Positions 28,757 through 55,577 of a DNA stretch of 64,000 nucleotides are shown here, in pieces (position 1 is the stretch's first letter; each line of letters opens with the position of its first letter). The stretch spans positions 1 through 64,000 of the forward strand of contig NZ_JNLX01000157.1 in assembly GCF_000715495.1 (NCBI RefSeq), read 5' to 3'. A program made the position numbers and the translations under genes. A model generated the notes under the pieces. It saw only the letters and a list, made by a program, of their open reading frames with translations. It made no database searches and had not been told where the DNA came from. This DNA comes from Hymenobacter sp. IS2118. GTDB taxonomy: Bacteria > Bacteroidota > Bacteroidia > Cytophagales > Hymenobacteraceae.

Positions 28757-28848
28757 GTCATGCTGAGCTTGTCGAAGCATCTCTACCGCTTCGTTGAATC
28801 AATTAGATTAGTTGTGCGGTAGAGATGCTTCGACAAGCTCAGCATGAC
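28757..28848. repeat. REP-like palindrome, family R1 copy B (TTGTCG subtype)
   Basis: 33-bp arms (28757-28789 and 28816-28848) starting GTCATGCTGAGCTTGTCG pair perfectly around a 26-nt AT-rich loop. Lies between the convergent DUF4230 and recX genes. Confidence 0.92.
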
Positions 28849-40154: not shown

Positions 40155-42743
40155 GTGTTCTTCTTCTCTGCTCTCCCGGGCCTGCTTGGCGGCCGCTTGC
40201 TGCAAGCCCCAGCTGCCTCAACCGCCGAAGTCCGCCACCTGCTGCTCGACAGCCGGCGGGTGGGCCTGTCCGCCGGCGCCCTGTTTTTTGCCCTGCGCGG
40301 CCCCAGTCACAATGGCCACCGCTACCTGCCCGAACTCTACGCCCAGGGCGTGCGCTTGTTCATCGTGGAGGATGGGCGGGCATTGCCCGGTGGCCTGGCC
40401 GCTTATGCGGAGGCGGGCATTATGGCGGTGCCAAGCCCGCTGGCCGCGCTGCAAGCCGTGGCCGCCGCCCATCGGGCCACGTTTGCCGGCCCGGTTTTCG
40501 GCATCACCGGCTCCAACGGCAAAACCATTGTCAAGGAGTGGCTGGCCCAGCTGCTGAGCCCCGACGAGGATATCTGCCGCTCGCCGCGCTCCTACAACTC
40601 CCAGGTGGGCGTGCCTCTCAGCGTGTGGGAGCTGCTACCCGAACGCCACACCCTAGGCATTTTCGAAGCCGGGATTTCCGAGGTTGGCGAAATGGCCCGC
40701 CTGGCCACGGTCATTCAGCCCACCGAAGGGATATTCACCACGCTGGGCACGGCGCACGACGCCGGCTTTGCCTCTGCCCAGGAGAAGCTGCTCGAAAAGC
40801 TGCAGCTGTTCCAAGGCCCCCGGTTCCAGCGCTTGTTCTACTGCCACGACCAGGAACTGGTGCGCCACGCCGTGGCCACCCAGCAGCTGCCCGGCTTCAG
40901 TTGGACGCGCCACGCCGGGCAGCCCGCCGATATCTATTTTGCCCTCGACCAGAGCACCAGCGGCAGCACCAGCCTGCACGCCCGCTACGCCGGCACGGGC
41001 CTGGGAGCCGCATTCACGTTGCCCTTCTCCGATGAGCCCTCGGTAGAAAATGCCCTGCACTGCCTGGCCGTACTACTGCACCGCCAGCTCGAACCAGCCG
41101 AAATCCAGCGCCGCCTCGCCCGCCTGCACCCCGTGGCCATGCGCCTCGAAATGAAGCTGGGCCGCCACGATTCCTACCTGCTCGACGATACCTACAACAA
41201 CGACTTGGCCGGCTTGGCGCTGGCCCTCAATACTCTGGGCCGGCAGTCCCGCCCCGGCCGCCGCACCCTGATACTGAGCGACGTGCTGGAGTCGGGCCTG
41301 AGCGGCGCCGAGTTGTACTCCCGCGTAGCCGCGCTGCTACCCGCCGCAGGCGTCACACGTCTGGTAGGCATCGGAGAAGAGATTTCGAGGGAATTAACAA
41401 TCATAAATTATAAATTAAAAAGTGAGATTGAAGAAGGTCCCGATACCCCGAATACTTCGACTAATCAGGACTCATTTTTAATTTTTAATTCTCAATTTTT
41501 AATTGAAACCTACCCCACCACCGAGGCCTTCCTCGCCCAGCTCGACCCCGCTGCCTTCGCCCGCGAAGTCATCCTGATAAAGGGTGCCCGGCGGTTTGGC
41601 TTCGAGCGCATTGTGGCGGCGCTGCAGGCCCAGCAGCACGGCACCGTGCTGGAAGTCAACCTCGATGCCCTCGCCCACAACCTGCAGCACTACCGCCGTC
41701 AGCTGCAGCCTGCCACCAAGCTCATGGTGATGGTGAAGGCCTTTGCCTACGGCGCGGGGTCTTACGAAGTGGCCAGCCTGCTCGAATTTCAGCGGGCCGA
41801 CTACCTCGCCGTGGCCTACCCCGACGAAGGCGTGGCCCTGCGCGAAGCTGGCATCAGCCTGCCCATCATGGTGATGAACCCGGCCCCCGATTCCTTCGGC
41901 GCGCTGCAGCACTACCGCCTGGAGCCCGAGATTTACTCTTTCGAGATGCTGGCTGAATACCTTGCGGCCTTTCCGCCCGCGGCCAGCCCCGGGCCGCCCA
42001 TTCACCTCAAGCTCGACACCGGCATGCGCCGCCTGGGTTTCGATGAGGCCGACCTGCCGGCGCTGGTTGCGCTGCTGGGCCAGCAAGCCGCGCGGCTGCC
42101 CATCGCCAGCATTATGACGCATCTGGCTGCCGCCGACGACGACGCGCATGACGACTTCACCCAAACGCAGCTGGCAGCGTTCCGGCGCATGGCCACCGCG
42201 CTGGAGACCGCCCTGGGCTATGCTGTGCTGAAACACGCGCTGAACTCCGCCGGCATCCTGCGGTTTCCCGCTGCGCATTTCGACATGGTGCGCCTCGGCA
42301 TCGGCCTCTACGGCGTAGACGCCAGCGGCCGCGACACCGCGGCCCTGCACCCCGTGAGCCAGCTGCGCACTACCATTTCCCAAATCAAAACCCTGCCCGC
42401 GGGCCACACCGTGGGCTACGGCCGCCGTGGGGCGGCGGCCGCCAGCGAGCGGCGCATTGCCACCCTGGCCATTGGCTACGCCGACGGCTACGACCGGCGC
42501 TTCGGCAACGGGGCGGGCCTGGCGCTCATTCATGGCCAGCGGGCGCCGGTGGTGGGCTCGGTGTGCATGGACATGTGCATGGTCGACGTCACGCACATTG
42601 CCCAGGCCCGGGCTGGCGACGTAGCCCTGCTGTTCGGCGAGGGGTTGCCGCTTCCGGAGCTGGCGGGCCGCATCGGCACCATTGCCTACGAGCTGCTGAC
42701 CAACGTGAGCGAGCGGGTGAAGCGCGTGTTCGTGAGCGAGTAG
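40155..42743 (+). CDS. murF-alr: bifunctional MurF / alanine racemase fusion
   Basis: 862-residue fusion for peptidoglycan synthesis. The N-terminal MurF ligase (adds D-Ala-D-Ala to UDP-MurNAc-tripeptide) shows HLLLDSRRVGLSAGALFFALRG, FGITGSNGKTIVKEWLAQLL (ATP P-loop), SYNSQVGVPLSV and LLDDTYNND. The C-terminal Alr half is a PLP racemase: EVNLDALAHNLQHYRRQL, KLMVMVKAFAYGAG (PLP lysine), LDTGMRRLGF, HALNSAGILRF, RLGIGLYGV, ATLAIGYADGYDRRFG (catalytic Tyr) and VGSVCMDMCMVDVT. Such fusions are known in Bacteroidota. The start is a GTG at 40155. Unusual: about 38 residues (413-450) near the end of the MurF half are encoded by an AT-rich palindromic repeat inserted in frame (separate entry). Confidence 0.9.
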   Translation: MFFFSALPGLLGGRLLQAPAASTAEVRHLLLDSRRVGLSAGALFFALRGPSHNGHRYLPELYAQGVRLFIVEDGRALPGGLAAYAEAGIMAVPSPLAALQAVAAAHRATFAGPVFGITGSNGKTIVKEWLAQLLSPDEDICRSPRSYNSQVGVPLSVWELLPERHTLGIFEAGISEVGEMARLATVIQPTEGIFTTLGTAHDAGFASAQEKLLEKLQLFQGPRFQRLFYCHDQELVRHAVATQQLPGFSWTRHAGQPADIYFALDQSTSGSTSLHARYAGTGLGAAFTLPFSDEPSVENALHCLAVLLHRQLEPAEIQRRLARLHPVAMRLEMKLGRHDSYLLDDTYNNDLAGLALALNTLGRQSRPGRRTLILSDVLESGLSGAELYSRVAALLPAAGVTRLVGIGEEISRELTIINYKLKSEIEEGPDTPNTSTNQDSFLIFNSQFLIETYPTTEAFLAQLDPAAFAREVILIKGARRFGFERIVAALQAQQHGTVLEVNLDALAHNLQHYRRQLQPATKLMVMVKAFAYGAGSYEVASLLEFQRADYLAVAYPDEGVALREAGISLPIMVMNPAPDSFGALQHYRLEPEIYSFEMLAEYLAAFPPAASPGPPIHLKLDTGMRRLGFDEADLPALVALLGQQAARLPIASIMTHLAAADDDAHDDFTQTQLAAFRRMATALETALGYAVLKHALNSAGILRFPAAHFDMVRLGIGLYGVDASGRDTAALHPVSQLRTTISQIKTLPAGHTVGYGRRGAAAASERRIATLAIGYADGYDRRFGNGAGLALIHGQRAPVVGSVCMDMCMVDVTHIAQARAGDVALLFGEGLPLPELAGRIGTIAYELLTNVSERVKRVFVSE
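41393..41505 (+). repeat. AT-rich palindromic repeat inserted in frame in murF-alr
   Basis: About 113 bp of strongly AT-rich DNA inside GC-rich murF-alr. The left arm (41398-41426, ...AAATTATAAATTAAAAAG) and right arm (41470-41505, CTCATTTTTAATTTTTAATT...) are imperfect reverse complements. The element is translated without a stop (TIINYKLKSEIEEG...NSQFLIE). A copy of the same kind lies at 56398-56505. Confidence 0.82.
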
Positions 42744-43031: not shown

Positions 43032-44459
43032 ATGTCAATTAATACTCTGCGCTTATCCCGCCTGACGGGCGGTCTTATTCTTTATCTCATTTGCGCGGGC
43101 GTTCTGCCGGCCGCCGCCCGGCCGGCCGCGGTCGCAGTGGCCGCTACCGACGATGCCCCGGCCCTCGATGGCCTGTGGAAGGGCCAGCTGAAAGTGCCGG
43201 GCGGGCAGCTCGAAGTCATTTTTCGGCTTCGTAAGCTGATGGGCAACGACTATTACTGCGACCTCGACGTGCCCCAGCAGAAAGTGAGCCGCATGGCGGT
43301 GAAAGCCGAAGTGAAAGGCGATACCGTGCGCCTCTACGCCGAGGAAGCCGCTACCCGCTTCATCGGCCGCCTCTCTGCCGATGGCAAGCAGATGAACGGC
43401 ACCTGGCAATCGCCGGGATTTAAAACGCCAATGGTGCTGAATTTCAGCGCCATGCCCGATATAAGTGCTAAAAATGTGCGCCTCACCCCGCCTTACCGCG
43501 AGGAGGAAGCCACTTTCACCAACCTCACCGTGAACACGCGGCTCGGCGGCATGCTCACCATTCCGGCCGGCCAGGGGCCGTTTCCGGCCGTAGTGCTGCT
43601 CAGCGATGCTGGCCCGCAGGACCGTGACGGCACCGTGGGCGACTTTGCCCCACTGGGCCTGTTGGCTGATTTTCTTACGCGCCGGGGCATCGCCGTGCTG
43701 CGGTTTGATGACCGGGGCGTGGGTAAATCCGGCGGTACGGCTGCCGTCAGCACCGCCGATTTGGTGAGCGATGCCCAGGCAGGCATGAATTTCTTGCGCA
43801 CCCGTCCCGAAATTGATTTGGCACATCTGGGCCTGATTGGGCACGGCGAAGGCGGTAATGTGGCACTGCTGGCGGCGGCGCAACCCTTGCCGCCGGCTTT
43901 TGTAGTGGCCCTGGCCGCTTACGGCCTGCCGGGCCGCGAAATTGTGGTGCAGCAACAGGCTACCACGCTCCGCACCCTGGGCACCGACAACAACCAGATT
44001 GAGGCCGCGACCAAGCGGCAGCAGGCCATGCTCGAAATCATTCGGCAAACGACCGATAACGCCCAGGCCCAGGCCATTGTGGCCAACATGCTCAAGCAGA
44101 ACAACGCCGCTATCGACAATGCTACCGCCCAATCGAGCGCGGCCGAGATGACGTCGGCCCGCTACCGGTTTTTCCTCGCCTTCAACCCGGTGCAGCAGCT
44201 CACGGGCGTTTCCTGCCCGGTATTGCTCCTGAACGGCACCAACGACCTGACCATCAATGCTGATGCTAACCAGAAAGCATTGCAAAAAGGACTGGCGCTC
44301 AATAAGAATGTGACGGCCAAGAAATTGTCCGGTGTCAACCACCTCTTTCAGCCGGAGGCTACCAAGTGGCCCATCATCAACGGCCAGCAGCAGCCCAACT
44401 TCTCGCCCGAAGCCGAGGAAACTATCCGGGAATGGATTGTGGCGCAGAGCAAAAAATAA
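43032..44459 (+). CDS. secreted alpha/beta-hydrolase-fold protein lacking the nucleophile Ser (module copy 1)
   Basis: 475 residues. Signal peptide at about 1-30. An N-terminal beta domain (residues 45-150) starts ALDGLWKGQLKVPGGQLEVIFRL, then an alpha/beta-hydrolase core (X-Pro dipeptidase/S33-like) with YREEEATFTNLTVNTRLGGMLTIPAGQGPFPAVVLLSDAGPQDRDG and VLRFDDRGVGKSGG. The nucleophile elbow reads LGLIGHGEGGNVALLAA: glycine stands where the family has serine (GHSEGG). The Asp loop (LLNGTNDLTI) and the His (GVNHLFQPEA) are kept. The protein may be a pseudo-enzyme or binding protein. It converges on the carboxypeptidase-regulatory-like gene ending at 45820; the same pair is repeated at 47.3-49.6 kb. 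Confidence 0.82.
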   Translation: MSINTLRLSRLTGGLILYLICAGVLPAAARPAAVAVAATDDAPALDGLWKGQLKVPGGQLEVIFRLRKLMGNDYYCDLDVPQQKVSRMAVKAEVKGDTVRLYAEEAATRFIGRLSADGKQMNGTWQSPGFKTPMVLNFSAMPDISAKNVRLTPPYREEEATFTNLTVNTRLGGMLTIPAGQGPFPAVVLLSDAGPQDRDGTVGDFAPLGLLADFLTRRGIAVLRFDDRGVGKSGGTAAVSTADLVSDAQAGMNFLRTRPEIDLAHLGLIGHGEGGNVALLAAAQPLPPAFVVALAAYGLPGREIVVQQQATTLRTLGTDNNQIEAATKRQQAMLEIIRQTTDNAQAQAIVANMLKQNNAAIDNATAQSSAAEMTSARYRFFLAFNPVQQLTGVSCPVLLLNGTNDLTINADANQKALQKGLALNKNVTAKKLSGVNHLFQPEATKWPIINGQQQPNFSPEAEETIREWIVAQSKK

Positions 44460-44470
44460 TCACTGACTCT

Positions 44471-44600
44471 CGGTGATTAACCTTGATTTCGCTGATTCAA
44501 AAATCCCCTGGCTTGGTAGAGTCAGGGGATTTTTTTATGTGCTGGCAGCACTGCTCTACAGTGGTCGAGCGTGCCACTCTCCTTCAGCGAAATCACGGTT
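44471..44600. repeat. repeats of an AATCAGCGAAATCACGG word
   Basis: An inverted copy at 44471-44497 and a direct partial copy at 44585-44600 (CAGCGAAATCACGGTT) recur as a direct copy at 45781-45807. Short intergenic dispersed repeat around the IS1595 insertion. Confidence 0.65.
44499..44536 (+). terminator. terminator after the first hydrolase gene
   Basis: Stem AAAAATCCCCTG / CAGGGGATTTTT with a 12-nt loop and a T7 run, 40 bp after the stop. The loop and stem resemble the terminator at 45703-45733, suggesting they are related. Confidence 0.88.
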
Positions 44601-44639
44601 GATAAGTGAGCACGCACGAGTAAGCATAGCCTCCAGGCT

Positions 44640-44720
44640 GTCATGTCGAGCGCAGCCGAGGCATCTCGCTCGCACCGCTCAATGAAGCGAGCAAGATGCC
44701 TCGGCTGCGCTCGACATGAC
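44640..44720. repeat. REP-like palindrome, family R1 copy D (GCAGCC subtype)
   Basis: Arms 44640-44673 and 44687-44720, starting GTCATGTCGAGCGCAGCC, pair over 34 bp with one mismatch. Confidence 0.88.
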
Positions 44721-44790
44721 CACACGCAACACGCTTCATGTGCGCGATTATTTAAGCAGTGGTGCAAAAGTAACCGTAGCAAAAAAGCGG

Positions 44791-44878
44791 GTCATGCTGA
44801 GCTTGCCGAAGCCTCTCTACCGCACCGTTGGAGTTGTTCAACGAGGCGGTAGAGAGGCTTCGACAAGCTCAGCATGAC
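44791..44878. repeat. REP-like palindrome, family R1 copy E (TTGCCG subtype)
   Basis: Arms starting GTCATGCTGAGCTTGCCG, about 33 bp each, at 44791-44823 and 44846-44878, with one mismatch. It ends 13 bp before the IS1595 left repeat, so two family copies stand in tandem here. Confidence 0.88.
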
Positions 44879-44890
44879 GGTTAAAATTTA

Positions 44891-45636
44891 GGGGCTTAGG
44901 AAGCAAAAACCAGAAAATGGGGCATAACTTACTGTTATGCAATCAGCTAACCGCTATTATAAGTGCAGCAAAATTTCAGAGGTCAAATTTCGCTACTTGC
45001 TGCGCCTGTTTGCCTTGGATTTGACGGCCTCGGATACGGCCCGGCTCACGGGCCTGAGCGTGCGGGCTGTCAATGAAATTTACCTGCGGCTGCGCCACCG
45101 GCTCCTGGCCTGGAGCCCCGTGCCGGCTGAACTCGACGGGGCCGTCGAACTCGACGAGAGCTACTTCGGCCCGCGCCGGGTGCGCGGCAAACGGGGCCGC
45201 GGGGCCGGCGGTAAAACCATCGTCTTTGGCCTGTTCAAACGTGGCGGGCAGGTGTACACGGAAATCGTACCCGACTGCTCGAAAAAAACCTTGCAGGCCA
45301 TCATACGCGGCAAAATCGACGTGGCCGCCATGGTCAATACCGACGGCTGGCGCGGCTACGACGGGCTGGTGGACGTGGGCTTTGACCGCCACTTCCGCGT
45401 CCGCCACGGCCAGAACGAATTCGTGGGCGGCGCTTCGCATATCAATGTCATTGAATCCTTCTGGAGCTTCGCCAAAGCCCGCCTTCAGCAGTTCAAGGGC
45501 GTACCCAAGCACACCTTTTTGCTGCACCTGAAAGAGTCTGAATTTCGCTTCAATCATCGTTACGAGGACCTTTATAAACTGCTCCTTAAATTACTTCGCC
45601 AACAGCCCCTCTAACCAAGTTTGCTTCCTAAGCCCC
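44891..45636 (+). mobile_element. IS1595-family insertion sequence (ISXO2-like)
   Basis: 746-bp element with perfect 17-bp terminal inverted repeats GGGGCTTAGGAAGCAAA (44891-44907, and reverse complement at 45620-45636). The direct repeat AAATTTA flanks both ends (44884-44890 and 45637-45643), consistent with target-site duplication; the family usually gives 8 bp. It carries one transposase gene and is inserted between the convergent genes of module copy 1. Confidence 0.9.
44937..45614 (+). CDS. IS1595-family (ISXO2-like) transposase
   Basis: 225-residue DDE transposase. It contains ELDESYFGPRRVRGKRGRGAGGKTIVFGLFKRGG (first catalytic Asp at about 73), AAMVNTDGWRGYDGL (second Asp), NEFVGGASHINVIESFWSFAKARLQQFKGV (catalytic Glu region) and FLLHLKESEFRFNHR. 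These are the hallmarks of the ISXO2-like transposase domain. The N-terminus begins near a helix-turn-helix (LDLTASDTARLTGLSVRAVNEIYLRL) and lacks the zinc ribbon found in many relatives, so this is the short form. The element has intact ends and an intact frame, so it may be active. Confidence 0.9.
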   Translation: MQSANRYYKCSKISEVKFRYLLRLFALDLTASDTARLTGLSVRAVNEIYLRLRHRLLAWSPVPAELDGAVELDESYFGPRRVRGKRGRGAGGKTIVFGLFKRGGQVYTEIVPDCSKKTLQAIIRGKIDVAAMVNTDGWRGYDGLVDVGFDRHFRVRHGQNEFVGGASHINVIESFWSFAKARLQQFKGVPKHTFLLHLKESEFRFNHRYEDLYKLLLKLLRQQPL

Positions 45637-45702
45637 AAATTTAATACGATTACTTATGCACACCTGCTTAGTCGCTGATTAGCAACTATCAACTGTAATA
45701 AA

Positions 45703-45733
45703 AAAACCCTGGCTCGGTAGAACCAGGGTTTTA
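45703..45733 (-). terminator. terminator for the minus-strand gene of module copy 1
   Basis: AAAACCCTGG / CCAGGGTTTT stem with a 10-nt loop. On the minus strand it ends in a T7 run, 87 bp after the stop at 45820. Confidence 0.82.
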
Positions 45734-45819
45734 CAGGAACTATCGGTGTAGCTAAACCAATGGTTAAACACGACGCCCTCAATCAGCGAAATCACGGTTA
45801 ATCACCGCTAATCAGCGAT

Positions 45820-46719
45820 TTATTTAATCATATCCACTTCGGCCTTAATCATGGCGTTGTAGCGGCGGCCCTGGTCGTTAGCCAACGTGAGCAGGTTCCA
45901 GCCCTTGCCAATAGTATAGCTCCAGGTGCGGCTTTCCTTGAACTCGAAGGTGGGACGCATAATCTGGCCGTAGGGCGTGTAGTTGTCCATGAAGTTGGTG
46001 GTGTAGAACTTGTCGCCGCCCACAATCCACTCCATGGCCACGAAGAAGCCTTCTTCCGGCGCTGGAATATTGTAGGTGCTCAAGTCGATGGTATACCATT
46101 CGCCGCCGCGCGAAGCCGACACCACTACGTTTTCGGTGAGCAGGTCGGTGTTGGGGGCGTTGTAGTTGCCGTCGGCCTTGTAGATACGCACCCGGAAGGG
46201 CTCGCGGGGGAAACCATTTTCCCCGATGTAAAAGGACACCGTGCGCACGTTGCCCAGCTTCTTCTGCTTCTCGTTTTTCACGAAAAAGGCGTACTGGCTG
46301 CCGGGCAAGCCCTGAATCATGCCTTCGCCGGGGTTGTTTGAGTTGGAGCCGAGCACAAGGTTTTTCACCTTACCGCCTCTAACCGTCACGTTGGCGAGCT
46401 CAATAACCCGCTTATCAAGTTCGATGATAAGGTCTTCGGTACCGCCACGCTTGATTACGACGGCACTGCGCGCGTAGCCTAGCGTCATAACAATAAGGGA
46501 ATCCTGGCTCGCCTTTTCGAGGCCGGCCAGCTGAAAGTAGCCGTACTCGTTGGTTAGTGCGCCCGTGCCCTCTTCCCGCAGGCTAATGGAGGCAAAGGGA
46601 ACCGGGTCTTTGGTTTTGGCATCCACAACCCGGCCCGTAACACGGTTTTCCTGTGCCCAGCCCAGTGCTGGCAACAGCAACAAAGCCCAAAATGCAAGAA
46701 CAGGTATGCGTTTCATCAT
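45820..46719 (-). CDS. carboxypeptidase-regulatory-like secreted protein (module copy 1)
   Basis: 299 residues with a signal peptide (...VLAFWALLLLPALGWAQ) and a CarboxypepD_reg-like domain at about 25-110 (RVTGRVVDAKTKDPVPFASISLREEGTGALTNEYGYFQLAGL...MTLGYAR). A C-terminal domain of unknown family (about 120-299) has KVKNLVLGSNSNNPGEGMIQGLPGSQYAFFV, VRTVSFYIGENGFPREPFRVRIYKADGNYNAP and PEEGFFVAMEWIVGG, ending in MIKAEVDMIK. This second domain looks like a beta-sandwich. The same-length paralog at 48723-49622 is nearly identical over the C-terminal domain, but its N-terminal domain has diverged. It is convergent with the hydrolase of the same module. Confidence 0.8.
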   Translation of the reverse strand: MMKRIPVLAFWALLLLPALGWAQENRVTGRVVDAKTKDPVPFASISLREEGTGALTNEYGYFQLAGLEKASQDSLIVMTLGYARSAVVIKRGGTEDLIIELDKRVIELANVTVRGGKVKNLVLGSNSNNPGEGMIQGLPGSQYAFFVKNEKQKKLGNVRTVSFYIGENGFPREPFRVRIYKADGNYNAPNTDLLTENVVVSASRGGEWYTIDLSTYNIPAPEEGFFVAMEWIVGGDKFYTTNFMDNYTPYGQIMRPTFEFKESRTWSYTIGKGWNLLTLANDQGRRYNAMIKAEVDMIK

Positions 46720-46751
46720 CGCCGGAGATAATAATAATGGATGTAGTTTGG

Positions 46752-46759
46752 CAAATTTA
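46752..46759 (-). promoter_or_regulatory. candidate -7 box for the module copy 1 minus-strand gene
   Basis: On the minus strand TAAATTTG matches TAnnTTTG, 33 bp before the start at 46719. No clear -33 TTG. Confidence 0.45.
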
Positions 46760-47280
46760 CTAGTTCTCAGTCATTATATCGCCATCCATGGCCAGGGAGC
46801 GCAACAAATGATTTGTTAAATCCAAATTAAATGGGCCAATACCATTAAAAAGAAGATAAATATTGGGCAAAAATTTATTAATCAAGCCTTTAGGTTTTGA
46901 AAAAAAAGGCCCCGGTACTGCACATCGAAAGTAACGAAAAGTGTTTTTTCTGCCTAACCAGAGTTTTACGACCACAGTACATTTTCCTTATTTGCCGGTA
47001 ATTGCTTCGAAATTCATTACGTGGCAGGGTTGAAAACGGATTGGCACGACTTGCATCAAGGGACATCAGGGCCAATGCTTCCGGCACAGGGCGGGTACCA
47101 TAGACGGGCTTTGGCTTGGCTGCGAAGGTGATGTTAAATATTTAATGCAATATATTTATAATGAACTGATTGAAGCGTTTGTTGCTGAGACGGAAGGCCC
47201 GGCGGTGGCGCTGGTTACGGCGGGAGTTATGCTATTGCTTATCTTTCGGGTGCCATAAGTCTATTTACAACAAGTGCACA
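46760..47280. other. divergent intergenic region between the two module copies
   Basis: About 520 bp without a recognised gene, AT-rich around 46800-47000 and 47130-47165. It separates the minus-strand gene of copy 1 from the plus-strand hydrolase of copy 2. A TATCTTTC octamer (47240-47247), one base from the -7 consensus, lies 34 bp before the hydrolase start. Confidence 0.5.
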
Positions 47281-48699
47281 ATGAAAAGGTGGGTAATTTG
47301 GGTGGTACTGTTGCTGACTGGATGCAGCATTGGTACTGCCTGGGCCAACGGCCGCGCGCCGAGGGGAGAAAGCCTGCCTCTGGGGGGCTTATGGAAGGGG
47401 AAACTGTCCGTTTTAGGGGGGCAGCTGGATTTGACCATCAGCGTGGTGCCGTTGGCGAACGGCCAGTACTTTGCCGCCCTCGACGTGCCCGCCCAAAAGG
47501 TGAACCGCATGGTCACGGAAATGACCGTTCGCGGCGATTCCGTGCTGTTGTACATGCCGGCGGCGGGCAGCCGCTACGCCGCCCGCTTCGATGCCGCCAA
47601 GCGGGAGTTGATTGGCGTCTGGACCCAGGGCGGGGTAAAGTCCCCGCTGCGGCTGCGGTACGCGCCAATGCCAAGCCTCAGCGGACCCGGCACACGCCTG
47701 GCCCCGCCCTACCGCGAAGAGGAGGTTGCATTTGATAATGCCGTATCGCGCTTAAATTTTAGCGGCACGCTCACGGTGCCGCCCGGCACCGGGCCCTTCT
47801 CGGCCGTGGTGCTGGTGAGCGACCTCGGCGCTCAGGACCGTGACGGTACCGTGGGCAACTATCGCATGATGGGCGCCTTGGCTGATTACCTTACCCGCCG
47901 GGGCGTCGTCGTACTCCGCTATGATGACCGGGGGGTGGGGCAGTCGGGCGGGAGCACGGCCACCGCCACCACCGCCATGCGGGTGAGCGACGTGCAAGGC
48001 GCCATCAACTTTCTGCGCTCCCGGCTGGAAGTCAACATTGCCCGCATTGGTGTGGTGGGCCACGGCGAAGGCGCCAACGTGGCCTTATTGGCTGCGGGGC
48101 AGCCGTTGCCGCCAGCCTTCGTGGTTTCGTTGGCGGGCTACGGCCTCACGGGCGAACAAACGTTGCTGCAACAGCTGCTGATGCAGCAGCGCGCCCAGAA
48201 ACTGGAACCTGCTGCGATGCAGGCGGCCTACGAGCGGCGGCGTACGATGTACAGCATCATCCGGCTAACTAATCCGGCGCAGGCCCGCGCCATTGTGAGC
48301 AACATGCTGCGCCAGGACCAGCCCGGCCTTGATGCTCAGGCTATTCAAAAGGCGGCATCACAGCTGCTGACGCCCTGGCAGCGCTCTTTTCTGGCCTTCG
48401 ACCCGTTGGAGGACCTGAACGAAGTGCGCTGCCCGGTGCTGCTGCTCAGCGGCACTGCCGATGAAGTGGCTCCCGCCGAGCTGCATCAGGTAGCGCTGGA
48501 AAAAGAGCTGAAAAGCTTCAATCGCCAAACGGTTGCCAAGCGTTTGCCGGGCGTCAACCACCTTTTTCAGCCCGCGAAATCGGAATGGACACTGATGAAT
48601 GGCGAATTGAGTCCCCTGTTTTCGCCTGTGGCACAGGAAACGATTCGGCAGTGGCTGGTTGATTTGGACAAGCCAAGCAAAGTGTTATTCTCTAAATAA
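47281..48699 (+). CDS. secreted alpha/beta-hydrolase-fold protein lacking the nucleophile Ser (module copy 2)
   Basis: 472 residues, paralog of the 43.0-kb hydrolase with the same architecture. The signal peptide is MKRWVIWVVLLLTGCSIGTAWA (contains a possible lipobox LTGC). A beta domain begins GGLWKGKLSVLGGQLDLTISVV, and the alpha/beta core has YREEEVAFDNAVSRLNFSGTLTVPPGTGPFSAVVLVSDLGAQDRDG and VLRYDDRGVGQSGG. The elbow is IGVVGHGEGANVALLAAG, again with Gly in place of the nucleophile Ser. The Asp region (LLLSGTADEVAPAE) and His (GVNHLFQPAK) remain. The ATG at 47281 is used; an in-frame codon at 47170 adds a basic, unlikely leader. Only 23 bp separate its stop from that of the convergent paralog gene. 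Confidence 0.82.
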   Translation: MKRWVIWVVLLLTGCSIGTAWANGRAPRGESLPLGGLWKGKLSVLGGQLDLTISVVPLANGQYFAALDVPAQKVNRMVTEMTVRGDSVLLYMPAAGSRYAARFDAAKRELIGVWTQGGVKSPLRLRYAPMPSLSGPGTRLAPPYREEEVAFDNAVSRLNFSGTLTVPPGTGPFSAVVLVSDLGAQDRDGTVGNYRMMGALADYLTRRGVVVLRYDDRGVGQSGGSTATATTAMRVSDVQGAINFLRSRLEVNIARIGVVGHGEGANVALLAAGQPLPPAFVVSLAGYGLTGEQTLLQQLLMQQRAQKLEPAAMQAAYERRRTMYSIIRLTNPAQARAIVSNMLRQDQPGLDAQAIQKAASQLLTPWQRSFLAFDPLEDLNEVRCPVLLLSGTADEVAPAELHQVALEKELKSFNRQTVAKRLPGVNHLFQPAKSEWTLMNGELSPLFSPVAQETIRQWLVDLDKPSKVLFSK

Positions 48700-48722
48700 G
48701 CTACAAGTCAAAAGCTGCAAGC

Positions 48723-49622
48723 TTATTTAATCATGTCTACTTCGGCCTTAATCATGGCGTTGTAGCGCAGGCCCTGGCTGTTGGCGGCGGTGATGAGGCT
48801 CCAGCCCTTGCCGATGGAGTAGTTCCAGGTGCGGCTTTCCTTAAACTCGAAGGTGGGCCGCATAATCTGGCCGTAGGGCGTGTAGTCGTCCATGAAGTTG
48901 GTGGCGAAGAACTTATCGCCGCTCACCACCCATTCCATGGCCACGAAGAAGCCTTCTTCCGGCGCCATGATGTTGTAGGGCGTCAGGTCGACGGTGTACC
49001 ACTGCCCGCCTTGCGGCGCGGAAACCACCACGTTTTCGGTGAGCAAGTCGGTGTTGGGGGCGTTGTAGTTGCCGTCAGCTTTGTAAAGCCGCACCCGGAA
49101 GGGCTCGCGGGGGAAACCATTTTCACCGATGTAGAAGGATACGGTGCGCACGCTGCCCAGGCGCTTCTTTTTATCATTTTTCACAAAGAAGGCGTACTGA
49201 CTGCCGGGCAGGCCCTGAATCATGCCTTCGCCGGGGTCATTGGACTTGGCACCAAGGCCTAAGTTTTTGATTTTCCCCGCCTTCACCACCACGTTGCTCA
49301 GCTGAACCGCGCGCTTGGCTACTTCGATGGTAAGGTTGGCTACGGCCACGCCGCGCTGCACCAGCACCGTCCGCCGGGAATAGCCGAGCGCCTCCACGAC
49401 CAAGGAGTCTTCCGCATTTTTGCTGGGCGTGGGTACCACAAACTGGCCGTGCTCGTTGCTGAGCGCGCCAATTTGTTCACTTTTGAGCCCAACAGACGTG
49501 AAGGGTAATGGCTCTTTGGTGTCTTTGTCCACAATCACGCCCTTTATCTGACTCTGCTGAGCCCAACCTGACGTTGCAGTGATGACTGAGAATAATGCTA
49601 TAAGAAGTAGGCGTGAACTCAT
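48723..49622 (-). CDS. carboxypeptidase-regulatory-like secreted protein (module copy 2)
   Basis: 299 residues, exactly the length of its paralog at 45820. Signal peptide (MSSRLLLIALFSVITATSGWAQ) and CarboxypepD_reg-like domain (QIKGVIVDKDTKEPLPFTSVGLKSEQIGALSNEHGQFVV). The C-terminal domain is nearly identical to copy 1 (PGEGMIQGLPGSQYAFFVKN, FYIGENGFPREPFRVR, YGQIMRPTFEFKESRTW, YNAMIKAEVDMIK). The start at 49622 is chosen for the signal peptide. It is convergent with the copy 2 hydrolase, 23 bp apart at the stops. The domain of unknown family may bind the hydrolase-like partner (inference from conserved pairing). Confidence 0.8.
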   Translation of the reverse strand: MSSRLLLIALFSVITATSGWAQQSQIKGVIVDKDTKEPLPFTSVGLKSEQIGALSNEHGQFVVPTPSKNAEDSLVVEALGYSRRTVLVQRGVAVANLTIEVAKRAVQLSNVVVKAGKIKNLGLGAKSNDPGEGMIQGLPGSQYAFFVKNDKKKRLGSVRTVSFYIGENGFPREPFRVRLYKADGNYNAPNTDLLTENVVVSAPQGGQWYTVDLTPYNIMAPEEGFFVAMEWVVSGDKFFATNFMDDYTPYGQIMRPTFEFKESRTWNYSIGKGWSLITAANSQGLRYNAMIKAEVDMIK

Positions 49623-49794: not shown

Positions 49795-49802
49795 TACCTT
49801 TG
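49795..49802 (+). promoter_or_regulatory. -7 box (TACCTTTG) upstream of feoA
   Basis: Exact TAnnTTTG match, 41 bp before the GTG start of feoA. The -33 element is weak. Confidence 0.55.
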
Positions 49803-49842
49803 TTTGTATTCTTTCTAAATAAGCTTTCCCCGTTTCCTGCCC

Positions 49843-50121
49843 GTGGCATTTTTCCGCAATTCCTCTCCGCTTGTTGCTGCCGGTGTGGCCGCCCGCCGTA
49901 CTGCCAAAGACCTGCGCCTGGGCGAATCCGGCACCATTTGCTGCCTCGAAGACCCCGAAATGGCACTTAAGCTGCTGGAGATGGGCTGCGTGCCCGGCGT
50001 GCAGGTGCGCCTGAGCGGCCGGGCGCCCCTGGGCGACCCGCTGATGCTGGTGCTTGGCGACCAGGAATACACGCTGTCGGTTCGGGCCAGTGAGGCCGCT
50101 ACCATTTTATTGAAAGAGTAA
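49843..50121 (+). CDS. feoA: FeoA-type ferrous iron transport protein
   Basis: 92-residue SH3-like FeoA domain protein, partner of the FeoB iron permease. It has AKDLRLGESGTICCLEDPEMALKLLEMGCVPGVQVRLSGRAPLGDPLMLVLGDQEYTLSVRASEAATILL, where LLEMGCVPG and GDPLM..L...EYTLSVR..EA are the family hallmarks. GTG start. It is 10 bp upstream of feoB, so co-transcribed. A 15-20 residue N-terminal extension precedes the domain. Confidence 0.88.
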   Translation: MAFFRNSSPLVAAGVAARRTAKDLRLGESGTICCLEDPEMALKLLEMGCVPGVQVRLSGRAPLGDPLMLVLGDQEYTLSVRASEAATILLKE

Positions 50122-50131
50122 AGCGCAGCGT

Positions 50132-52300
50132 ATGGCGGCAACAGAGCGCACCCCCGCGACGGCCGAGTCCCTCGCCCCGCCGGCCGGGCTGGCTGCCGGC
50201 CCGCAGCCGTTGCGCATTGCCCTCATTGGCAACCCCAACAGCGGCAAAACGTCGTTATTCAATCAACTCACCGGGCTGAACCAGAAGGTGGGCAACTTTC
50301 CGGGCGTGACGGTGGACCGCAAGTCGGGCTTCGCGCAGCTCACGCCGGCGCAGCGGGCCGAGATTGTGGACCTGCCGGGCACCTACTCGCTCTACCCCAA
50401 GAGCCTGGACGAGAAGGTGATTACGGACCTGCTCTACGACCGGGCCGCGGGTAACTACCCCGATTTTGTGGTGGTGACGGTGGACGCCAATAACCTGCGC
50501 CGCAGTCTGTTGCTCTTCACCCAGCTCGGCGACCTGGGCCTGCCCGCCGTGCTGGCTCTGAACATGATGGACGTGGCCGAGCGCCACGGCATCCGCATCG
50601 ATTTGCCGGCGCTGGAGCGGGAGCTGGGCGTGCCCATTATCCCGATGAATGCCCGCAAGGGCATTGGCGTGGCGGCCCTCAAGATTGTGATGGCCCAGCG
50701 GCTCGATGCCGCGCCGGAACGCTTTTGGGAGCCCGATGAAGCGCTGCTGCCGCTGGTACGGCAAATCCGCTACTACTTCGACCTGCATAACGACTACCTG
50801 GCCCTGCACTACGCCCAGCAGTACCGCCACATCGGTTTCCTGAGCGCCGACGACAAGGCGTATTTGCAGGAGCTGACGCACAAGTACGAGTTCGACGCTA
50901 CGGCGCGGCAAGCGGCTGAAACCATTGCCCGCTACGGCCGCATCAACGACATTCTGCTCGAAACCGTGACGGTGACGCGCACCGAAACCCGTGAGCCGAT
51001 TAGCAACCGCATCGACAAGGTGCTGACCCACCGCATCGGCGGCTACCTGATTTTTCTGAGTATTCTGTTCCTGTTGTTCCAGGCCATTTTTGCCTGGGCG
51101 CAGTACCCCATGGACTGGATTGACCAGGGCATTGCGGCCCTGAGCGCCACCATTCAGGACAATTTCGACGGGCCGTTGGTGCGCCTGCTCACCGAGGGCG
51201 TGCTGGCTGGCCTGGGTGGGGTGCTGATATTCATTCCGCAGATTGCGCTGCTGTTTGGCTTCCTGGCCGTGCTGGAGGAAACGGGCTACATGGCCCGCGT
51301 TACCTTTCTGATGGACAAGCTGATGCGGCCATTTGGCCTTAGCGGCAAAAGCGTGGTGCCGATGATATCGGGGCTGGCGTGCGCGGTGCCGGCCATTATG
51401 GGCGCCCGCACCATTGAGAGCTGGAAGGACCGGATGATAACCATCTTTGTGACGCCGCTCATGTCGTGCTCGGCGCGCATTCCGGTGTACACGGTGCTGG
51501 TGGCGCTGGTGGTGCCCGACCAAGCTGCGTGGGGCATCTTCAACCTGCGCGGCGTCACGCTCATGGGGCTGTATTTGCTGGGCCTATTTTCGGCCCTGGG
51601 CTCGGCCTGGGCGCTGAAAATCGTGCTCAAAGCCCGGGAGCGGAGCTACTTCATCATGGAATTCCCCGTGTACCAGTGGCCGCGCTGGAAAAACGTGGGC
51701 CTGACTATCTACCAGAAAGTGCAGGCCTTTGTGATGCAGGCGGGCAAGGTGATTGTGGCCATTTCGGTGCTGCTGTGGGTGCTGGCCACCTACGGCCCCG
51801 GCCAAAAGCAGGAAACCGCCGAAGCCCAGGTGCGCCAGCAAGTGCCCGCCCAGGGCTGGAACGAGGAGGAAACCAGCCGTCGCGTGGCTTCAGCCCGTCT
51901 CGAAAACTCTTACGCTGGCTCGTTTGGGCGGGCCCTGGAGCCGGCCATCCGCCCGCTGGGCTACGATTGGAAGATTGGCATTGCACTGCTCACCTCGTTT
52001 GCGGCGCGGGAGGTATTTGTGGGCACCATTTCCACCATCTACAGCGTGGGGCAGGACGCCGACATGGGCACGCTGCAGGACAAGCTGCGTGCCGAGAAAG
52101 ACGCCAACGGGCAGCCGTTCTTCACGCCAGCCCGGGCGTTTTCGCTGCTTGTGTTCTACGTGTTTGCCATGCAGTGCATGAGCACGCTGGCCGTGACGTA
52201 CCGCGAAACCAAGAGCTGGAAGTGGCCGATGGCTCAGCTGGTGTACATGACCGGGCTGGCCTACGTGGCGGCCTTGGCGGTGTACCAGATGCTGGCCTAA
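50132..52300 (+). CDS. feoB: ferrous iron transporter FeoB
   Basis: 722-residue inner-membrane Fe(II) permease with an N-terminal G domain. Seen are G1 GNPNSGKTS (about 33-41), FPGVTVDRKSG (switch I), G3 DLPGTYS (80-86) and G4 NMMD. The helical spacer follows, then gate domains: LIFIPQIALLFGFLAVLEETGYMARVTFLMDKLMRPFGLSGKSVVPMISGLACAVPAIMGARTIES, with the conserved GCAVPA-type Cys. A C-terminal gate contains LLTSFAAREVFVGTISTIY and AMQCMSTLAVTYRETKSWKWP. All domains are present. An N-terminal extension of about 27 residues precedes the G domain. Confidence 0.93.
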   Translation: MAATERTPATAESLAPPAGLAAGPQPLRIALIGNPNSGKTSLFNQLTGLNQKVGNFPGVTVDRKSGFAQLTPAQRAEIVDLPGTYSLYPKSLDEKVITDLLYDRAAGNYPDFVVVTVDANNLRRSLLLFTQLGDLGLPAVLALNMMDVAERHGIRIDLPALERELGVPIIPMNARKGIGVAALKIVMAQRLDAAPERFWEPDEALLPLVRQIRYYFDLHNDYLALHYAQQYRHIGFLSADDKAYLQELTHKYEFDATARQAAETIARYGRINDILLETVTVTRTETREPISNRIDKVLTHRIGGYLIFLSILFLLFQAIFAWAQYPMDWIDQGIAALSATIQDNFDGPLVRLLTEGVLAGLGGVLIFIPQIALLFGFLAVLEETGYMARVTFLMDKLMRPFGLSGKSVVPMISGLACAVPAIMGARTIESWKDRMITIFVTPLMSCSARIPVYTVLVALVVPDQAAWGIFNLRGVTLMGLYLLGLFSALGSAWALKIVLKARERSYFIMEFPVYQWPRWKNVGLTIYQKVQAFVMQAGKVIVAISVLLWVLATYGPGQKQETAEAQVRQQVPAQGWNEEETSRRVASARLENSYAGSFGRALEPAIRPLGYDWKIGIALLTSFAAREVFVGTISTIYSVGQDADMGTLQDKLRAEKDANGQPFFTPARAFSLLVFYVFAMQCMSTLAVTYRETKSWKWPMAQLVYMTGLAYVAALAVYQMLA

Positions 52301-55493: not shown

Positions 55494-55577
55494 GTCATGC
55501 TGAGCTTGTCGAAGCATCTCTACCGCGCAACTAATTTCAACGAAGCGGTAGAGATGCTTCGACAAGCTCAGCATGAC
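55494..55577. repeat. REP-like palindrome, family R1 copy F, inside the efflux operon
   Basis: Arms starting GTCATGCTGAGCTTGTCG at 55494-55526 and 55545-55577 are 33 bp each and pair perfectly around 18 nt. Located between the tolC-like and ABC ATPase genes. Confidence 0.9.

Follow-up and report, generated by a model that had tools for sequence, protein, structure and literature searches.

A conserved gene locus beside feoAB in Hymenobacter encodes α/β-hydrolase-fold proteins lacking the nucleophile serine and a protein family with a strongly constrained C-terminal domain

Proteins of the α/β-hydrolase fold include serine-bearing enzymes and proteins in which the catalytic residues have been replaced. 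EstD (bacterial lipolytic family X) carries a GHSLG motif, and phenylmethylsulphonyl fluoride removes 96% of its activity (PMC6622161, in excerpt). NDRG3 is nonenzymatic and has its whole triad replaced (PMC7022630, in excerpt). In hydroxynitrile lyases, exchanging a residue at the oxyanion region gives this fold a different chemistry, with His as base, and triad mutants of AtHNL each have less than 2% activity (PMC3444685, in excerpt). Here, we describe a locus in a stretch of 64,000 nucleotides from Hymenobacter sp. IS2118 (contig NZ_JNLX01000157.1, positions 1 to 64,000; hereafter ‘the window’), which encodes two secreted α/β-hydrolase-fold proteins without a nucleophile serine, H1 and H2, and two secreted proteins of a second family, P1 and P2 (Table 1). 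H shares its fold with EstD but carries Gly in place of the nucleophile and an oxyanion-loop Asp; like the NDRG family it lacks the nucleophile, but it retains Asp and His; and like the lyases it shows an exchange in the oxyanion region, although the lyases keep their serine. P has an N-terminal domain like the N-terminal extension of SusC/RagA (PF13715), but it is without the receptor barrel and runs into an unnamed C-terminal domain. Literature searches linking two or more of Hymenobacter, feoB and the name of the P domain gave no description of the H/P locus, and those on serine-less α/β hydrolases yielded NDRG and other enzymes. With the case for and against evenly balanced, we read the locus as an apparently vertically inherited envelope island in which H would be a rewired pocket protein and P an envelope accessory domain.

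Of the new facts, the strongest is the loss of the nucleophile serine in a single group of H proteins, coupled to the gain of an aspartate. The nucleophile position is occupied by Gly in H1 (GHGEGG, Gly272, codon 43845-43847) and in H2 (GHGEGA, Gly262, codon 48064-48066), and neither has the Ser of the EstD-type GxSxG motif. An earlier note on this DNA, made from the sequence alone, had called both hydrolases serine-less, which was borne out by a motif survey of 160 aligned H homologues from Hymenobacter, the related genus group g5, further genera of the family and different families of its order: Ser occupies this position in 43 and Gly in 117. The oxyanion-loop position 192 (Asp in H1, codon 43605-43607) is Gly in 43/43 of the Ser-bearing homologues and Asp in 114/117 of those with Gly; when distinct middle segments only are counted, the figures are 40/40 and 113/116. 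In a 50-row alignment, Asp405 and His437 are invariant whilst Gly272 and Asp192 are at least 90% conserved. Short or frame-broken matches were left out of the comparisons. On a tree of 148 homologues (12 of the 160, being fragments or duplicates, were dropped), the Ser/Gly distribution needs one change of state, with support 100; this tree was made by a quick method with the motif columns excluded, no bootstrap and a midpoint root. As judged from these sequences, loss of the serine is a trait of the whole family and apparently happened once. A sequencing error or a pseudogene as the source of the missing serine was excluded by the 117 Gly-bearing homologues together with a ratio of non-synonymous to synonymous substitution (dN/dS) of 0.066-0.126.

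H resembles an ordinary hydrolase by sequence, yet the serine is missing from five of the six paralogues that match strongly in the window's genome, and these five cannot be ordinary serine hydrolases. In the same genome a Ser-keeping paralogue (GHSQGG) and a Gly-form one (GHGEGG) lie in tandem (contig C47:28796-31813, L165), and such tandems are also found in relatives G009, G012, G022, G042 and G085 and in G104, G117 and G133 of g5. With these Ser-keeping paralogues as natural controls, the coupled Gly/Asp exchange offers a clean system for studying how an enzyme family shifts or abandons its chemistry. Another Ser-keeping hydrolase of the H family was observed downstream of feoB at one relative's locus (L206:2266-3570).

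Both H1 and H2 pass the Pfam Hydrolase_4 cut-off of 27 bits (50.1 and 48.2 bits, respectively). Their best NCBIfam match is EstD (NF041096; H1 91.8 bits, 4.7e-26; H2 73.5 bits, 1.6e-20), far under its curated cut-off of 600 bits. The H1 model (predicted local distance difference test, pLDDT, 86) has the α/β-hydrolase fold: it aligns with 6lzh_A over 249 residues (Z 28.1, root-mean-square deviation 3.0), and residues ~152-475 give Z 22-28 against α/β hydrolases. The signal sequence of H2 carries, by eye, a lipobox-like LTGC. A close H match (E up to 1e-70) is present in 101/101 of the Hymenobacter genomes searched. Amongst 30 genomes of the family from outside the genus, all six of g5 have a best H match below 1e-130, and in the remaining 24 the best match is 1e-75. 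The dN/dS of H1 and H2 against three other species, given above, compares with 0.071-0.087 for feoB; H is under purifying selection.

An H without the nucleophile serine cannot form a serine acyl-enzyme, and its fold could be retained as a scaffold with no catalytic role. We consider such a non-catalytic H a serious contender, if on balance improbable; it would account for a serine that is missing on one side of a single tree branch (117 of the 160 homologues) and for purifying selection on the protein. The NDRG-type loss of all triad residues is not found in H, however, as the full replacement described for NDRG3 (PMC7022630, in excerpt) is set against an Asp and a His that are invariant in 50/50 rows, and the new Asp that accompanies the Gly goes beyond what a scaffold should need. 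Pfam Ndr was also absent among the H matches at E up to 1. H would most likely work through a rewired pocket formed by Asp192, His437 and Asp405, in ligand binding or in acid-base chemistry that involves no covalent serine intermediate.

The two P proteins are of exactly 299 residues each, as the earlier note had counted. At the N-terminus they pass the PF13715 (CarboxypepD_reg-like) cut-off of 32.2 with 56.7 and 51.7 bits, and the domain is transthyretin-like, matching carboxypeptidase D at Z 12.9 and a SusC N-terminal extension at Z 12.8. The C-terminal domain has no Pfam match, and in a sequence search the matches of P to solved structures end near the N-domain. The P model has a pLDDT of 62, with residues 233-276 and 278-282 below 50, and is unreliable for the C-domain. 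It is this unnamed part that is strongly constrained: against three species its dN/dS is 0.010-0.032, versus 0.041-0.104 for residues 1-118. A close P match (E up to 1e-50) was found in 101/101 of the Hymenobacter genomes searched. At E 1e-15 the C-domain was detected in 41/100 genomes of the family, 33 of Hymenobacter and eight of g5, and in none from four further genera of the family. The window's genome holds the N-terminal part of a further P paralogue, 53% identical, at a contig edge (contig C1:197-496).

The combination of N-domain, loop and second domain, present in several copies, also recalls BamP, which PDB entry 9n2d_E calls CarboxypepD_reg-like. BamP lies on BamA; BamP homologues protect F. 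johnsoniae from darobactin, and BamP4 binds the BAM complex (PMC12611786, in excerpt). Could P be a BamP-like accessory of this outer-membrane insertion machine? A P-family profile matches BamP (9n2d_E, residues 6-148) at 5e-5, with a fold match of Z 10.2 over 79 residues; the BamP authors state, in the same excerpted text, that different mechanisms are at work elsewhere in the phylum or else analogous proteins have gone unrecognized (PMC12611786), and the window's genome has no BamP above the NF053692 cut-off. Nevertheless, P2 reaches 19.4 bits against that cut-off of 230, over residues 21-119 only, P1 was not listed, and SusC-type receptors and carboxypeptidase D match better in both sequence and fold. 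We regard a BamP-like role as very improbable.

The two copies of each gene have diverged unequally. P1 and P2 share 43.6% amino-acid identity at residues 25-118 and 84.5% at residues 119-299, whilst H1 and H2 are 47% identical. The earlier note was right that the hydrolases and the P N-domains have diverged more; its wording that the C-terminal 180 residues of P are ‘almost identical’ overstated a part that is nonetheless far more alike than the N-terminal one. It had attributed the difference to constraint or gene conversion, and both apply to the C-domain. At four-fold sites of the C-part, P1 and P2 within a genome differ by 0.270, versus 0.365 across genomes (24 loci; 0/20000 permutations as low), with an effect that peaks at codons 121-220, whereas residues 25-118 show none (0.516 vs 0.525; 5143/20000 permutations). 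Locus by locus, the direction is opposite in 1/24 (L224), and the genome's own P2 is the closest in 10/24. Constraint alone was ruled out as the cause of the alike C-domains by this within- versus cross-genome difference. The H1/H2 control also shows a small four-fold effect (0.433 vs 0.452; 17 loci, 93/20000), and shared codon habits therefore account for part of the P signal.

Loci of relatives were compared in 74 named cases, the distinct ones amongst the best 80 of 132 relatives, a few of which share a genome (L206/L219 and L212/L270); a second Hymenobacter set of 40 loci and a g5 set of eight overlap with these in species and were not summed with them. The nearest named locus amongst the best 80 is that of H. 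jeongseonensis BT683 (H1 90-91% and P1 94% identical). With variations, the conserved order is murF-alr, an optional H, an optional OmpA-like lipoprotein, P on the other strand, feoA and feoB; murF-alr lies beyond H/P on the far side in most loci that extend far enough. The lipoprotein (PF00691) is present in 55/74 loci and was not found at the window's locus. Doubling takes several forms: the order murF-alr, H, P, lipoprotein, H, P, feoA, feoB is seen in 14/74 loci and the window-type order without the lipoprotein in two of the 74, and elsewhere two P genes accompany a single H, or the first H is missing and the second stands between two P. P and H are not always doubled together. In a P N-domain tree (few columns, no bootstrap), 31 feo-proximal sequences of the window's clade group with one solo sequence (support 98) and 33 distal ones form another group (support 96), with P pairs outside these groups in a few other species. 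The two kinds of copy mostly form separate groups, which makes the duplication an old one in the window's clade. A recent, strain-specific duplication was ruled out, since doubled H and P recur in many species and the P copies group separately.

P has feoAB as its constant neighbour; H is often nearby but optional. P stands divergent beside feoA in 71/71 of the named loci with feo in view, whether H is present or not, and beside feo in 40/40 of the second Hymenobacter set and 8/8 of g5. A convergent H is present within 2 kb of P in 55/74 loci, immediately beside it in 33/74, and near it in 23/40 and 5/8 loci of the other two sets. The constancy of feoA raises the alternative that P is an envelope protein functioning with FeoAB in ferrous iron uptake, for which the three synteny counts, in sets overlapping in species, are the evidence. 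TAnnTTTG is a promoter element of Bacteroidota. Ahead of feoA, 72 aligned P-feoA intergenic regions give the consensus GTACCTTTGTTTg.A.t...TCTAAATAA, which contains a TAnnTTTG-type box; the P side has a separate box of its own, and no shared operator was seen in the 72 regions. These separate promoter-like boxes speak against a joint function, as does the distance of ~180 bp that, in the window, separates P from a conserved stretch following the feoA box. In 52 distant P-like loci, most with 1.5 kb flanks, neither feoA nor feoB was matched, and synteny within one lineage may reflect inheritance alone. A role of P with FeoAB is unlikely in our judgement. The conserved stretch itself (window 49795-49822), between the promoter-like box and the start of feoA in the 72 regions and near-palindromic in some by eye, is a possible metal-repressor operator.

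The earlier note had seen in the window a tandem module of two convergent pairs and had suggested that H and P are functional partners, a suggestion that would fail if the families rarely co-occurred in other genomes or were adjacent in this strain only. All four genes are open reading frames and both pairs are present, but an insertion sequence of the IS1595 family splits the first pair and leaves H2 and P2, 23 bp apart, as the one directly adjacent pair. Co-occurrence within 2 kb is common and extends over many species, as the counts above show, and hence partnership survives in part: the convergent arrangement and the fusions described below favour it, whereas the constancy of feoA, the lipoprotein lying between, the loci without H and the uncoupled doubling do not. 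In its stronger form, H and P would be a dedicated two-component system duplicated as a unit. This form is rather doubtful: the convergent loci, the doubling of both genes in many species and the P-like/hydrolase fusions elsewhere agree with it, but no H was seen at 19/74 P loci (two of which, L228 and L270, are cut by contig ends), in 38/74 it is the OmpA-like lipoprotein that directly converges on P, and a single H accompanies two P in several species. Because H is found somewhere in all 101 Hymenobacter genomes, presence or absence by genome cannot decide this point.

Beyond the genus, a profile including distant P relatives has matches in 210/296 genomes of the phylum, most of which, among the matches listed, cover the N-domain only. 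Of 27 distant P-like loci (the best 30 minus three from Hymenobacter), three from one genus (G397, G477 and G640) encode fusions of a P-like part with Abhydrolase_1 in which the serine is kept (GWSDGG); these have the N-/C-domain order of P, but they are single chains with a hydrolase of another subfamily. The same P-like and Abhydrolase_1 order occurs in a Hymenobacter protein (G091), and in another family (G300) a dienelactone-hydrolase-like (DLH) domain comes first and the P-like part follows. Distant P-like proteins are hence fused to ordinary α/β hydrolases in three lineages; in G676, separate P-like and hydrolase genes lie side by side on one strand. When the G640 fusion was searched across the class, 2/15 matching genomes aligned near full length and the rest over the hydrolase part. 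The C-domain of P, which lacks a Pfam name, is under high constraint; its relatives occur across Bacteroidota and in several lineages are attached to hydrolases. Fused-hydrolase relatives with another N-terminal domain, unmatched by the P-like profile and β-sandwich-like by eye, were also seen (L388, L389, L390, L392 and L397), and in two genomes of one genus (L379 and L384) a P-like gene is flanked by a GH3-family and a DUF6909 gene, and the three share one strand.

In the reading that we favour, the locus, conserved in Hymenobacter and one related genus group, would be a cell-envelope gene island, apparently inherited vertically, with H and P both doubled in one large clade. The H family apparently underwent its Ser-to-Gly swap once, with the oxyanion-loop Gly-to-Asp exchange alongside and the catalytic Asp and His kept. 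P would most likely be a docking or ligand-binding accessory domain, from a wider family of Bacteroidota proteins, found elsewhere in fusion with α/β hydrolases that retain the serine, and might make contact with H. A bolder version, in which H proteins of the Gly clade perform new, serine-free chemistry at the Asp-His-Asp site with the help of a separate P that has hydrolase-fused relatives, is possible but doubtful. Several observations weigh against these proposals. A non-catalytic role explains the serine loss nearly as well, and three of the Gly-bearing homologues have Glu, Gly or Asn in place of Asp192. Of the 19 P loci at which no H was seen, 13 have a single P and the lipoprotein, and their P is 72-77% identical to P1, much like that of single-P loci with H. 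The fused hydrolases keep the serine and belong to another subfamily than H, and fusion is not exclusive to hydrolases, as contig C87 of the window's genome joins a P-like protein to a membrane domain. Finally, hydrolases make up 4/63 of the neighbouring open reading frames of the 27 distant P-like loci, two of the four coming from one genus, versus 1/104 in controls (Fisher p 0.068); the controls were 27 stretches, most ~20 kb from the P-like gene, with those for G640 and G663 on other contigs and the G676 genome outside the 27. The open frame on C87 (C87:6260-7072, L019) is of 589 amino acids, and its membrane domain is DUF2306-like by eye.

Table 1. Features of the H/P locus in the window (ORF, open reading frame; aa, amino acids).
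Feature	Position	Strand	Basis
murF-alr fusion gene, bordering the conserved locus on the left	40155..42743	+	ORF; name read from sequence, start codon uncertain
H1, secreted two-domain α/β-hydrolase-fold protein without nucleophile serine, 475 aa	43032..44459	+	ORF, Pfam Hydrolase_4 2.9e-13
IS1595-family insertion sequence including inverted ends	44885..45642	.	inverted arms and transposase
P1, secreted, CarboxypepD_reg-like (transthyretin-like) N-domain and unnamed C-terminal domain, 299 aa	45820..46719	-	PF13715 2.5e-15 at 27-113
H2, second serine-less hydrolase, 472 aa counted from ATG	47281..48699	+	ORF, Pfam, motif survey
P2, second protein of the P family, 299 aa, divergent from feoA	48723..49622	-	ORF, Pfam, relatives' loci
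feoA, GTG start	49843..50121	+	translation; beside P in relatives
feoB	50132..52300	+	ORF; conserved beside feoA and P

The element between H1 and P1 belongs to the IS1595 family: its transposase gene (44937-45614) scores 160 bits against a cut-off of 75, and its ends are 23-nt inverted arms that are 91% complementary (44885-44907 and 45620-45642). A short flanking repeat of ~7 nt, AAATTTA, was observed by eye. Two long palindromes also lie between H1 and P1. Long palindromes resembling repetitive extragenic palindromes were seen in the window at 28757-28848, 44640-44878 and 55494-55577, with a further palindrome at 44640-44720; their 23-nt arm pattern occurs six times at up to three mismatches, in three facing pairs, where shuffled sequences lead one to expect 0.

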